This document shows positions 15,055 to 20,028 of a DNA stretch of 40,681 bases, piece by piece (position 1 is the stretch's first letter; the number at the start of each line of letters is the position of its first letter). A program made the translations under genes and the position numbers. Source of the stretch: Streptomycetaceae bacterium (GTDB lineage Bacteria > Actinomycetota > Actinomycetes > Nanopelagicales > Nanopelagicaceae); the NCBI GenBank assembly GCA_007280125.1, contig QYPT01000073.1, positions 1 to 40,681 of the forward strand, given 5' to 3'. The notes below the pieces were generated by a model. It was not told the DNA's origin, searched no databases, and saw only the letters and a program-made list of their open reading frames with translations.

Positions 15055-15904
15055 TCATGCCTCTTGTAAAACAATGAGGTACATAGATGCTAAAACCAAG
15101 GTGCCACCAGCGCCAACTTGCCATGTGAGCGTCTCGCCACCGAAGACCACCGCAAAGATCGCTGCAAAGACAACTTCCATTGTCAAAATTACGGCAACTT
15201 TAGTAGAGGCAATGTGCGCTTGCGCCCACGTTTGAATAATAAAGGCGAATGCCGTCGCAAAAAGAGCAGTAAATACTATTACTGCCCAAACACCACGGTC
15301 GGGTGGCAGGTGGTATCCGTTCTTGAGTGAGGCAATTCCAGATATGAAGGCACATGTGGTTAGTTGGATAATCGTTAGCGCATAGGTGTCTCTACCGCTG
15401 CTCCATTTTTCTAAGGAGAGGATGTGTCCCGTGAAGGCAAGTGCGCTACCCAAGACAAGAATTTCTCCGGTGCCTACCGACCATCCATGCAATGAAAGTA
15501 GAGCGAGACCGATTGTTGCCATAAAGATGTAGACCCAAGTTTTTTTTGAAATCTTTTTTTGGAAAAAAAAATGCGCCCACTAAAGGCGTCAATACCACGT
15601 ATAAGCCAGTCACGAATCCAGTGATTGCAGCCCCCGTGCGAACCAATCCGAGCGTTTGCAAGATATAGCCGATTCCTAGAAAACAGCCGGCAAAGAAACC
15701 TTTTGATAGCAAGTCACGACTAAATAGCGTGAGAACCTTTGGTCGCAGAATCACCAATGCGATGGCTGCAAATGCGAAGCGAGTAGAAAGGAAACTATTT
15801 ACGTCTTGGCGATCGATGGCGGGTTTCATGAGTACGAACGTCGAACCCCAAACAGCCGCTACAAAAAGTAGAGCACCCGGCGCGAATCGGATGTGTTTGG
15901 TCAT
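15055..15904 (-). pseudogene. EamA/DMT permease interrupted by a frameshift
   Basis: Two overlapping minus-strand frames encode halves of one EamA permease. The 5' half runs from ATG 15904 (MTKHIRFAPGALLFVAAVWG), reads well to 'LYVVLTPLVGAFFF' and then turns into non-homologous sequence. The 3' half (ending at 15055) resumes with 'KTWVYIFMATIGLALLSLHGW' and completes the second repeat. The break lies in a cluster of homopolymers: A9 (15563-15571), T7 (15554-15560) and T8 (15540-15547) on the plus strand. Removing one A from the A9 run gives a continuous frame of 282 residues through 'AFFQKKISKKTWVY'. This could be a sequencing or assembly indel, a recent inactivation, or slippage. The start overlaps the nfo stop by 4 bp (ATGA). 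Confidence 0.85.
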
Positions 15905-16762: not shown

Positions 16763-18685
16763 TTAGCCTACTGTTATCACGACCGTGCTGCCACGTTTAA
16801 CCTTTGTTCCAACTGTTGGAGAGACATTTGTTACGGTTTTAATCGACTTTTTGCCGATCTTCTTCACGGTGACTTTAAGGTCGAAATCTTGAAGAACTCC
16901 TGTTGCTTTAGCTTGAGTAAGCGAATACACGTTGGGAACAAAAACCGACTCGGACCCTTGCGAAACAACAAGATCAATCTTCGAACCCTTTGGAGCTGAA
17001 GCTCCACCGTCGGGAGTCTGACTTATAACTGCTCCGATTGGAACAGTGTCACTAAATGCATAGACGGAAGAAACGTCGAATCCTTCTGTGGTGAGTTCGT
17101 TGAGCGCCTGTTCTCCGCTGAGTCCCACATATGAAGTAAGAGCAACTTGCTCTTGGCCCTTACTTATCGTGATATCAATACTGGTATCTCTCTTGACTGA
17201 TGTTCCCGCCACTGGATTAGATGCAACTACAAGACCTTGTTCGATTTTCTTACTAAATACTTCAGTGATGGCCCCAATACTTACAGGATTTGTTGTCAGA
17301 AGAGTAGTTGCCGCCTCAAGTGTGAGCCCTTTGATGTCAGCAATTTTGTAACGCTCTGGTCCTTGCGAAACTTGGAAAAGAACCATTCCACCTGCGCTTA
17401 CGCGACCTCCACCACCGGGTTTAGATGAAATTATTTTCCCTGATGGAATTTCTTCACTAAAGACTTTCTCCGAAATCTCTGAAGTAAGACCGAGTGGCTT
17501 TAGAGTTGCATTTGCTTCCTTCACGCTCATTCCCGCGACCGATGGCACAACGATGCGAGTTCCAGGACCCACCAGTGCATACCAAGCGCCGGTAACTAAT
17601 GCGATTACGATAAAGAGAGCAATCCATCTGTTTCGTTTCACTCTCGCACTCGCGCGGCGACGGCGTATTTCACTGGTCTTCTCTCCTGCAGGTTTCAATT
17701 CTTTCTCCAATGCCATGGTCTCCACTGTGCCAGAGGAAGGTGAAATTTTTACTGGCAAAACCCTGGGAGCTTTGCGAGATTTATCTCGTATGGGCGCAGG
17801 AGGTAGATCCAATTCCAGGCTCATTTGAGTTTTTTTCGGGTCAAGTTCAGTTTGTATCAGTCGTAGGCTTTCAAGAAATTCGCCGGCATGTGCAGGCCGT
17901 TCATCGGGATTACTGCTGGTGGCTTTGTAAATCAACGCATCTAAGGAAGCGGGGATACCAGATTTCTTGGATGAAGCAAGTGGGACTCGTTCGTTGACAT
18001 GCATGTAGGCAATTTGAATAGGGGAGTCGCCCTCAAAAGGCTTAGAGCCAGTGAGCATTTCAAAAGCAACAATTCCCACGGAATACAGATCGCTACGTGC
18101 GTCAGCAATACCTCGCTGAACTTGTTCAGGCGAGAGGTATGACACGCTTCCCATAATTACGCTTGACTCGACAGTCATTGTTGAGCCAAGTAGTTCTCCG
18201 CGCGCCAAACCAAAATCTGCAATTTTGATTCTGCCAGTTGATGAAATGAGAACATTCTCGGGCTTGATATCTCGATGAACGATTCCGATCTTATGTGCAG
18301 CAGCCAAGGCGCTCAATATTGGGATCAGAAATTGAATGGATTCAGCGGGAGAAAGTGCACCACGTTCGAAAAGATAATCTCTCAGTGTATGTCCATCTAT
18401 GAGTTCCATAACAAGAAAAACTGCGGGGACTCCACTTTGATTCCATCCTTGATCTTGCACCGCAACAATGTTTGGGTGGGAAAGCGCAGCAGCAGCTTTC
18501 GCCTCTTTTATAAATCGACCAACAAATTCCTCATCATTAGCCAAATGTGCGTGCATGATTTTTACGGCAACTTTTCTATCTAAACGCGTGTCTAGAGCTT
18601 CGTAGATGGTTGCCATTCCGCCACTAGCAACTTGGCGAAGCAGTTCATACCTGCCATCTATGAGCTCGCCCGATAAATCATTCAC
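16763..18685 (-). CDS. PASTA-domain Ser/Thr protein kinase (PknB/PknL type)
   Basis: This is a membrane kinase of 640 residues. The kinase domain (about 12-275) has the glycine loop 'VASGGMATIYEA', ATP Lys42, catalytic 'VHRDIKPENV' with Asp139, and 'DFGLA' at 157-161. It also has an activation segment with several Ser/Thr before 'SYLSPEQ'. A basic juxtamembrane stretch precedes one TM helix at about 354-371. Four extracellular PASTA repeats follow (377-640), each ending near a 'GSxVxLxVSxG'-like strand. Such kinases sense muropeptides or lipid II and control growth and division. Linkage to class II DAHP synthase recalls mycobacterial pknL, but the PASTA ectodomain resembles PknB. GTG at 18685 is preceded by TAAGAT at 6 nt. 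Confidence 0.95.
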   Translation of the reverse strand: MNDLSGELIDGRYELLRQVASGGMATIYEALDTRLDRKVAVKIMHAHLANDEEFVGRFIKEAKAAAALSHPNIVAVQDQGWNQSGVPAVFLVMELIDGHTLRDYLFERGALSPAESIQFLIPILSALAAAHKIGIVHRDIKPENVLISSTGRIKIADFGLARGELLGSTMTVESSVIMGSVSYLSPEQVQRGIADARSDLYSVGIVAFEMLTGSKPFEGDSPIQIAYMHVNERVPLASSKKSGIPASLDALIYKATSSNPDERPAHAGEFLESLRLIQTELDPKKTQMSLELDLPPAPIRDKSRKAPRVLPVKISPSSGTVETMALEKELKPAGEKTSEIRRRRASARVKRNRWIALFIVIALVTGAWYALVGPGTRIVVPSVAGMSVKEANATLKPLGLTSEISEKVFSEEIPSGKIISSKPGGGGRVSAGGMVLFQVSQGPERYKIADIKGLTLEAATTLLTTNPVSIGAITEVFSKKIEQGLVVASNPVAGTSVKRDTSIDITISKGQEQVALTSYVGLSGEQALNELTTEGFDVSSVYAFSDTVPIGAVISQTPDGGASAPKGSKIDLVVSQGSESVFVPNVYSLTQAKATGVLQDFDLKVTVKKIGKKSIKTVTNVSPTVGTKVKRGSTVVITVG

Positions 18686-18738: not shown

Positions 18739-19290
18739 TTAGATGGTTGAGAGAACGAAGTCAGCATTCTCGCGGGTTTTGTCGGATTCGAAGAGATGAT
18801 CCTCATCAATTTGCCATTGATGCATCCTTTGGCTAATACCGGCACCGTCTCGCTGGAGGACTCGTTGCAAGCCAATGGCAGGGTCAATATCTAGCCAGAT
18901 AGTGGCAGATGCGTATTCTCGAACTATTTTTTGGCCACTTCCAACGCCTTCAATTATCAACAAAGTGCAAGGGGGTATTTCTTGAGAAATATCGAAGGAT
19001 TCTTTGGCCCAATTAAATTGACGGACCCATGTTGATTTCTTTTGAGAGAAATCATCAAGGATTTGGTGAAGGGCCTGGGTAAGAGATGAGTCCAAAGCCT
19101 TATCCCAACCAGCGTAGATTTCGTCAAGATTGATTACATGCACAGTTCGCTCACTAGTTAATGCCAAGAAAAGCTCGTGAGCCAGTGTTGTCTTACCAGA
19201 ACCTGCCCGACCATCGATAGCAATGACATGTGTGCCTCCACACCGCGGCGGTGTTGCGAGAATATCTTCGATGGCTCCGACGAGATGCAT
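18739..19290 (-). CDS. P-loop kinase, uridine-kinase-like, in the TPP-riboswitch operon
   Basis: This small P-loop NTPase has 183 residues. Walker A is 'DGRAGSGKTTL' (G27-T34), the acceptor-site acid follows in 'VINLDEIYAGWD', a Walker-B-like strand ends 'LLIIEGVGSG', and the C-terminal lid has 'RVLQRDG'. This is the layout of uridine kinase/nucleoside-kinase-like proteins, but it is shorter than Udk and the acceptor pocket is not diagnostic. It starts 4 nt after the pnuT stop and should share its transcript, and therefore the TPP riboswitch. By context it may phosphorylate the vitamin or precursor that PnuT brings in, such as thiamine or a thiamine moiety. That role is inference; nucleoside phosphorylation is the alternative. 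Confidence 0.82.
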   Translation of the reverse strand: MHLVGAIEDILATPPRCGGTHVIAIDGRAGSGKTTLAHELFLALTSERTVHVINLDEIYAGWDKALDSSLTQALHQILDDFSQKKSTWVRQFNWAKESFDISQEIPPCTLLIIEGVGSGQKIVREYASATIWLDIDPAIGLQRVLQRDGAGISQRMHQWQIDEDHLFESDKTRENADFVLSTI

Positions 19291-19294
19291 GTAC

Positions 19295-19903
19295 TTATTG
19301 TGCTCCTATTACTGGTGAAGCGTCTGCCTTTTTCAGCCAGGTACGCCATCCCGCAACAGCAAGTCCAACAAACAAAAGGTAGAGGAGCGCCGTGAGGTAC
19401 TGAACGCCATGGAAGAATTGATAGGCGTAAACAGCATCGACAACAAACCACAATGGCCACGCTTCATATTTCTCTAAGACCATCCACAGCTGGGCAATAG
19501 CGCTACCGACAAACCCAAAAGCGTCAGTGAGTGAGGCTGCCGCTCCGATTCTTTTCAGCACCGGATACAAAACCGCCCATGAAAGAAGGAAGATCGCACA
19601 CCATTGCATGCGCTCTTTAGGCGAAAGTTTTGCGGGCGTTGCGCCTTTAGCGCCCCACCCAAACCAGCCCCAAATGCCTCCAACTATGAAAATAATTTGA
19701 AGTGCGGCGCTAGCAAAGTATTTCTCCTGAAGAAAGAGAATTCCATACAGTGCGCTGCTGATATTCCACCAATGCCAGGTCTTGCGCGGGCCTATGACGG
19801 CAAGGCCGACTCCAATGAGCGAAGTGAGAAAGGCAAAGAGTTCCAGAAAAGATAAATCATAATTCCATGCCGTGAATACCGTCGCCATGAGATCTATTTT
19901 CAT
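19295..19903 (-). CDS. pnuT: PnuC-family vitamin transporter, predicted thiamine transporter PnuT
   Basis: This is a small integral membrane protein (202 residues from ATG 19903) of the PnuC family. It has about seven TM segments, including 'WHWWNISSALYGILFLQEKY', 'IIFIVGGIWGWFGWG' and 'WPLWFVVDAVYAYQFF', the aromatic-rich blocks of PnuC proteins. PnuC-type proteins are facilitators for nicotinamide riboside, riboflavin or thiamine. The TPP riboswitch directly upstream points to thiamine (PnuT). GTG at 19912 is an alternative start, but ATG 19903 lies just after the riboswitch and has GGGTGG about 6 nt upstream. Trapping of the substrate needs a kinase, which fits the P-loop kinase 4 nt downstream. 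Confidence 0.88.
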   Translation of the reverse strand: MKIDLMATVFTAWNYDLSFLELFAFLTSLIGVGLAVIGPRKTWHWWNISSALYGILFLQEKYFASAALQIIFIVGGIWGWFGWGAKGATPAKLSPKERMQWCAIFLLSWAVLYPVLKRIGAAASLTDAFGFVGSAIAQLWMVLEKYEAWPLWFVVDAVYAYQFFHGVQYLTALLYLLFVGLAVAGWRTWLKKADASPVIGAQ

Positions 19904-19996
19904 ACAAACCACCCATTCCAGGTCCGCATTATCGGACCGGTCAAACGGTCGACCTGACGATCAGGTCCTCTCAGCCACATGGGCTCCCGTGTTTGT
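19904..19996 (-). promoter_or_regulatory. TPP riboswitch (THI element) controlling pnuT
   Basis: Read on the minus strand the leader has the thiamin pyrophosphate aptamer core. It runs 5' ACACGGGAGCC, then GGCTGAGAGG with the invariant CTGAGA (19974-19969). A P3 hairpin follows (ACCTGA-TCG-TCAGGT). The second arm is GGTCC-GATAATGC-GGACC with the conserved GATAATGC (19933-19926), ending CTGGAATGGG. Possible P1 arms are ACAAAC (19996-19991) and GTTTGT (19909-19904), which would end directly at the pnuT ATG. The GGGTGG ribosome binding site lies inside the 3' part. This geometry suggests translational control: TPP binding hides the ribosome binding site. No terminator hairpin with a T-run is seen between the aptamer and the gene. 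Confidence 0.92.
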
Positions 19997-20028
19997 CACT
20001 CTATCAAAGAATTAGGCAGAATGTACGC

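Follow-up and report, generated by a model that had tools for sequence, protein, structure and literature searches.

We propose that a small operon on the minus strand of the window (the whole stretch of DNA that was analysed, 40,681 nucleotides) very probably serves thiamine salvage in a thiamine-auxotrophic actinobacterium, by way of a kinase that would convert thiamine to TMP and so feed ThiL. The operon comprises a leader, a PnuC-family gene and a gene for a 183-residue P-loop kinase, in that order, and the best reading of the kinase is that it represents an unrecognised, non-orthologous thiamine kinase of the uridine-kinase/PRK superfamily, distinct from ThiK, ThiN and ThiM. When TPP is low, a TPP aptamer in the leader would leave the ribosome-binding site accessible for translation of the operon; binding of TPP would mask the site. 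Thiamine would diffuse into the cell through PnuT and be trapped there by the P-loop kinase, which with ATP would convert it to TMP, and ThiL, encoded elsewhere in the genome, would make TPP. What the sequences show is the aptamer, a conserved gene pair, a gap in the pathway and co-variation across genomes; the compound that the kinase acts on, what it forms and how the operon is controlled are predicted. The genome to which the window belongs, as contig C5, has a size of 1.86 Mb and a completeness of 86%, and the order sampled for comparison consists of one family only, in which complete genomes measure 1.2-1.5 Mb. Genome size, carotenoid genes and the THI element-PnuT pair published for acI genomes (PMC5301498) make it probable that the organism is of the freshwater acI lineage (Nanopelagicaceae).

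The PnuC-family gene (pnuT, 19295..19903, minus strand) would encode a thiamine transporter of 202 residues if translation begins at the ATG at 19903. A GTG at 19912, the listed start, is also in frame, but the ribosome-binding site is located between the two, and the ATG is for that reason most likely the true start. The TAA stop codon of pnuT occupies positions 19297-19295, and the gene for the proposed thiamine kinase (18739..19290, minus strand) begins with an ATG at 19290, so that the 4-nt spacing given in the earlier note is right. A pknB-like gene for a PASTA-domain Ser/Thr protein kinase (16763-18685, minus strand) lies 53 nt downstream in the same orientation and possibly is co-transcribed with the P-loop kinase gene, which it still adjoins in loci that lack PnuT. 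Further along the same strand, at 15055-15904, an EamA/DMT-type transporter appears in two overlapping ORFs, the split probably reflecting a frameshift or an assembly error.

Analysis of the leader points to a real element, a predicted TPP riboswitch with its aptamer at 19912..19990 on the minus strand, as supported by RF00059, a lineage covariance model and covariation. CTGAGA followed by GATAATGC occurs on the minus strand in the expected order, as the earlier note had stated, and the corresponding CUGAGA and AAUGC cores are in place and are invariant or nearly so across the aligned leaders. Helices P2, P3, P3a and P4/P5 are conserved, and two-sided covariation was found in 11 of 20 predicted pairs in an alignment of 40 leaders. 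A search of the 501-base leader alone with RF00059 gave an end-to-end match at 19898-20000 on the minus strand (38.9 bits, E 3.4e-6); a covariance match therefore exists where the earlier note had placed the aptamer, but its score is under the Rfam gathering cut-off of 54.3 bits, which is why a scan of the whole window at gathering scores did not report a TPP element. The low score is due in part to the fact that the aptamers of this lineage have no P1 helix. When the genome was searched with RF00059, the true element was missed, and the sole match (16.8 bits, in contig C33) lay inside a long opposite-strand ORF and was judged to be noise. The lineage model (R1), which was built from the lineage's own aptamers with that of the window included, scored the window aptamer at 90.1 bits (E 2.7e-21) and found no second match within the window.

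A P1 helix shared by the lineage was considered and rejected, as complementarity between the aptamer flanks was no better than in shuffled sequences (9.31 against 9.36 in 59 leaders). The leader of the window alone can pair ACAAAC with GUUUGU at the P1 position, a pairing that its relatives lack, and free folding of the leader gave a z of -1.4. A -10-like hexamer, TAGAGT, with a TG upstream, is present at 19998..20003 on the minus strand, 8 nt before CGGGAGC. Among 59 family leaders, 45 have the pattern TANNNT at a distance of 5-11 nt upstream of CGGGAGC, compared to 8.5 expected, and the spacing is exactly 8 nt in 36, suggesting that transcription probably starts at or near the aptamer's first base, with P2 at the beginning of the RNA. 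At its 3' end the aptamer is purine-rich, and this segment, GGAATGGGTGG (19909..19920, minus strand), was assigned as the ribosome-binding site from sequence and alignment; the corresponding stretch is GGAAAGG in most relatives. Direct masking of the ribosome-binding site by TPP aptamers has been described for Actinobacteria (Barrick and Breaker 2007, PMC2258182), and by analogy we infer the same mechanism here, even though the element in the window differs from those riboswitches in showing no P1 helix and in having a promoter that directly adjoins P2. We found no published description of a P1-less TPP riboswitch, and the segment 19912-20003 on the minus strand may, with its 59 relatives, be one that the Rfam cut-off misses.

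The product of the first gene matched the PnuC/PnuT family domain PF04973 at 118.7 bits (cut-off 27.3), confirming its earlier assignment as a PnuC-family transporter, and matched TIGR01528 at 69.7 bits. The TPP aptamer, along with the auxotrophy described below, suggests thiamine as its cargo, and the role of PnuT is given to the corresponding protein of acI genomes in the thiamine passages of Kang et al. 2017 (PMC5301498). Most of the family genomes tested encode a second, higher-scoring PnuC elsewhere. The one in the genome of the window (G000:C26:31243-31818) is unlinked, scores above the window's own PnuC against PF04973, and is perhaps a true nicotinamide-riboside or riboflavin carrier.

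The 183-residue protein scored 33.7 bits against PF00485 (PRK/uridine kinase; cut-off 22), in agreement with its description in the earlier note as a uridine-kinase-like P-loop protein, and 32.1 bits against TIGR00235 (udk), for which the equivalog cut-off is 220.3 bits. The nearest named model was NCBIfam PRK06547 ('hypothetical protein'), which it matched at 101 bits, under the cut-off of 173 bits, and members from the outgroups (125-151 bits) were also under it. All matches in Pfam and among the best 25 in NCBIfam were to P-loop families, with none to the APH fold of ThiK (TIGR02721), and the TPK catalytic domain PF04263 was detected neither in the kinase nor anywhere in the genome of the window. 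The AlphaFold2 model of the kinase (pLDDT 93.8) was closest among solved folds to pantothenate kinase and uridine-cytidine kinase (Z 17-18, rmsd 2.2-2.6; for UCK2, Z 17.6 and rmsd 2.3 over 163 aligned residues); the fold comparison was also done with Foldseek.

Comparison of 35 kinase sequences allowed us to define a set of conserved motifs, all encoded on the minus strand. The Walker A motif, GRAGSGKT (residues 27-34, 19189..19212), contains invariant G27, G30, G32 and K33, and the DExYxGW motif (residues 56-62, 19105..19125) contains invariant D56, Y59 and W62. D56 aligns with the D..Y motif of uridine kinase and is the probable catalytic base. In the [FY][DN]W motif (residues 92-94, 19009..19017), which is probably an element of the acceptor site, W94 is invariant, and one may guess that W62 and W94 stack on the rings of thiamine. 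The EGVG motif (residues 114-117, 18940..18951) is invariant, as are R143, R147 and D148 in the RVLxRDG motif of the lid region (residues 143-149, 18844..18864). The fold, the Walker A and the catalytic D...Y motif are thus common to the superfamily of uridine-cytidine, pantothenate, PRK and NR kinases (PF00485), but the DExYxGW and [FY][DN]W motifs are the kinase's own. Both fold and motifs are those of a small-molecule kinase, which counts in favour of a thiamine kinase. The RVLxRDG motif has been lost from the most diverged kinase, that of genome G130, whose gene is adjoined, along with crtB, by a cytosine-deaminase-like gene and an NCS1 permease (L061, 699-4343).

The kinase was found in 145 of the 151 genomes of the order, and at 132 of the 144 family kinase loci examined the gene immediately upstream, in the same orientation, is of the PnuC type. 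Of these 132 linked pairs, 131 have a TPP aptamer before them (111 detected by sequence pattern and 20 more by the lineage covariance model), the exception, L024, being cut by a contig end. This arrangement is far beyond chance, and bears out the earlier proposal of a TPP riboswitch over pnuT and the kinase gene, although linkage inside the family may largely have been inherited from a single event. The 12 unlinked loci include 2 at contig ends and 10 that are real.

We then asked which enzymes of thiamine metabolism the family retains. Clear ThiE matches were confined to 6 of the 51 family genomes tested, and weak ThiE-like matches (∼19-21 bits, in G017, G066, G032, G013 and G203) were taken to be other TIM barrels. 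TPK was absent from all 65 family genomes searched; TPK_catalytic matches in other Actinomycetes covered only ∼35 positions of the model and probably represent SteA (PMC12977500). No protein in the genomes searched exceeded the 299-bit cut-off of the ThiK model. ThiL, on the other hand, was above its cut-off in 34 of 37 family genomes, and in 33 of 35 in a second set that included outgroups. Retention of ThiL with loss of ThiE, TPK and bona fide ThiK means that TPP can be made from TMP but that no known enzyme forms TMP, and imported thiamine would be usable only if some enzyme converts it to TMP. Two observations count against assigning this step to the P-loop kinase. G130 and G203, both incomplete, have the kinase and no detected ThiL, and sub-threshold ThiK/APH-like proteins occur in 25 of 35 genomes (65.9 bits in that of the window).

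The strongest evidence for a thiamine kinase comes from genomes that have exchanged the importer or lost the kinase. The lineage TPP model was run on 35 genomes, among them 9 of the 10 that have the kinase without PnuT (G076 was not in the set), and in all 9 a TPP riboswitch was found before another thiamine importer. In eight (G059, G081, G089, G109, G114, G124, G130 and G007) this was ThiB-ThiP, and in G044 a YkoE-like protein that matches PF09819. Of the ThiB proteins tested, five pass the TIGR01254 cut-off; for L189, L196 and L203 the importer was identified from sequence similarity, with ThiP of L203 tested. In G044 and G007, ThiE is present as well, and thiC is preceded by a riboswitch. 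It counts against a thiamine kinase that importers of the ThiB type are able to bring in TMP and TPP too.

The kinase was absent from six genomes of the order. The absence from G133, where a contig ends at the riboswitch, is due to an assembly gap, and G142 has a completeness of 79%. ThiE is present in all of the remaining four (G035, G060, G111 and G135), and the first three carry a TPP riboswitch before a CytX-like HMP permease (198-205 bits against TIGR02358, below its cut-off). The association of ThiE with absence of the kinase gave a Fisher p of 0.0013, uncorrected for relatedness, three of the four genomes being of one genus. The kinase accompanies import of thiamine and is dispensable with import of HMP and ThiE, a distribution that is predicted for a thiamine kinase and not for an HMP kinase. 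Comparative genomics therefore supports the earlier suggestion of a kinase for thiamine or a precursor outside ThiK, ThiN and ThiM, and narrows it: retention of ThiL, and the tendency of the kinase to accompany thiamine importers and to be lacking in genomes with ThiE plus an HMP importer, make thiamine to TMP the likely reaction, and HMP or thiazole kinase activity is probably not its function.

Other assignments have to be weighed against these data. The kinase could be a pyrophosphokinase that forms TPP from thiamine in one step, as might be supposed from genomes without TPK/ThiN and from the two with the kinase but no detectable ThiL. This is very unlikely, since nearly all ThiE-less auxotrophs keep ThiL, which would then have no source of substrate, and since the fold belongs to kinases that transfer a single phosphate group. 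ThiY-type binding proteins classically bind HMP or formylaminopyrimidine, and the four kinase loci outside the family that are linked to ThiY would fit a kinase acting on a precursor or breakdown product of thiamine (HMP, aminoHMP or hydroxyethylthiazole) imported by PnuT or ThiY. HMP and HET are, however, useless without ThiE, which is missing from 45 of the 51 family genomes and from all ThiY-linked genomes, and the kinase is missing where ThiE and the CytX-like HMP permease occur; we consider such a role very unlikely.

The gap might also be filled by the sub-threshold ThiK/APH-like proteins, with the P-loop kinase doing another job in the same regulon. Although APH-family matches of ∼60-90 bits to the ThiK model are found in many genomes, none reaches the cut-off, and a search of four auxotrophs that retain the P-loop kinase and whose genomes are single contigs (G001, G008, G011 and G013) detected none, so these proteins fail as a general solution and this reading is highly improbable. 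Least probable is that the carrier transports nicotinamide riboside or nucleosides and that its partner is an NR or nucleoside kinase. The family-level likeness of the kinase to uridine kinase and NR kinase, and the PnuC label given to the carrier by TIGR01528, would suit such a pair, but the aptamer before nearly every linked pair, the second PnuC in most tested genomes and the persistence of the kinase alongside ThiB-ThiP importers all argue against it.

A kinase forming TMP from thiamine would share its predicted reaction, and the supply of ThiL, with ThiK (E. coli YcfN, APH/choline-kinase fold, TIGR02721), but it belongs to a different superfamily, being P-loop and uridine-kinase-like. Co-transcription of a kinase with PnuT under a TPP riboswitch is likewise known for ThiN/TPK (PF04263) in the PnuT-Tnr3 operons of Bacteroides (PMC5613172); that protein is unrelated to the one described here, which probably makes TMP and relies on ThiL. 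Published reconstructions include only ThiK, ThiM and ThiN as salvage enzymes (PMC6593275), and as none of these fits here, the route from imported thiamine to TPP had been open. In their thiamine passages, Kang et al. 2017 (PMC5301498) had already reported a THI element with PnuT in four complete acI genomes and nearly all de novo and salvage thiamine enzymes as missing; riboswitch and transporter are as in the window, and the adjacent kinase goes unmentioned in those passages. We found no report of a P-loop thiamine kinase in the open-access literature searched. What would be new, then, is the protein family proposed for the step from thiamine to TMP, the reaction and the acI riboswitch-PnuT pair being known already. 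The lineage, which would depend on its neighbours for vitamin B1, is probably among the most numerous freshwater bacteria, and a 183-residue candidate in a known operon makes the TMP-forming gap directly testable.

Homologues of the kinase were found in 195 of 297 Actinomycetes sampled. The expectation, raised by the earlier note, that they would co-occur with thiamine genes holds overwhelmingly within the family and mostly fails outside it: most homologues in other Actinomycetes, those of prototrophs and of Streptomyces included, have unrelated neighbours, so a thiamine neighbourhood conserved across the class was rejected, and this counts against a thiamine kinase. At two loci, L126 and L117, the kinase follows a PnuC-like gene in a neighbourhood that differs from that of the family, and RF00059 detected TPP aptamers at both (37.8 and 26.5 bits) and at L161 (49.6 bits); the aptamer of L117, weak in Rfam, scored 62.9 bits with the lineage model, and it is among the sequences from which that model was made. 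The operon at L158 encodes a binding protein, the kinase, a permease and an ATPase, with an identical order at L145 as far as readable, and at L161 and L146 the kinase follows a binding protein. The binding proteins of L145, L158 and L161 matched PF09084 (NMT1/THI5-like) at 172-192 bits. No TPP aptamer was seen at the ThiY operons of L145 and L158, and L146 is cut before its upstream region. Neither ThiE nor TPK is present in the genomes with these ThiY-linked loci (L145, L146, L158 and L161), and ThiL is found in three of the four. A well-supported branch of a tree of 73 kinases separates the family from the ThiY-linked group, indicating that the association with thiamine is not one local accident.

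In one actinomycete family (L151, L154 and L155, with ORFs of ∼2.1 kb) a PRK06547-like kinase is fused N-terminally to a PabB (aminodeoxychorismate synthase) domain, which also counts against a thiamine kinase. A thiamine role across the kinase family is nevertheless plausible from the sequences. We advance only tentatively the wider possibility that the whole actinomycete PRK06547-like family is a general thiamine kinase of Actinomycetota, providing the TMP-forming salvage step in a class without ThiN or ThiK, and that in the freshwater lineage it is under a TPP riboswitch from which P1 has been lost and which starts at the promoter. A thiamine kinase of the kind proposed here would correct predictions of auxotrophy for many Actinomycetota and give a name to a family now called hypothetical.
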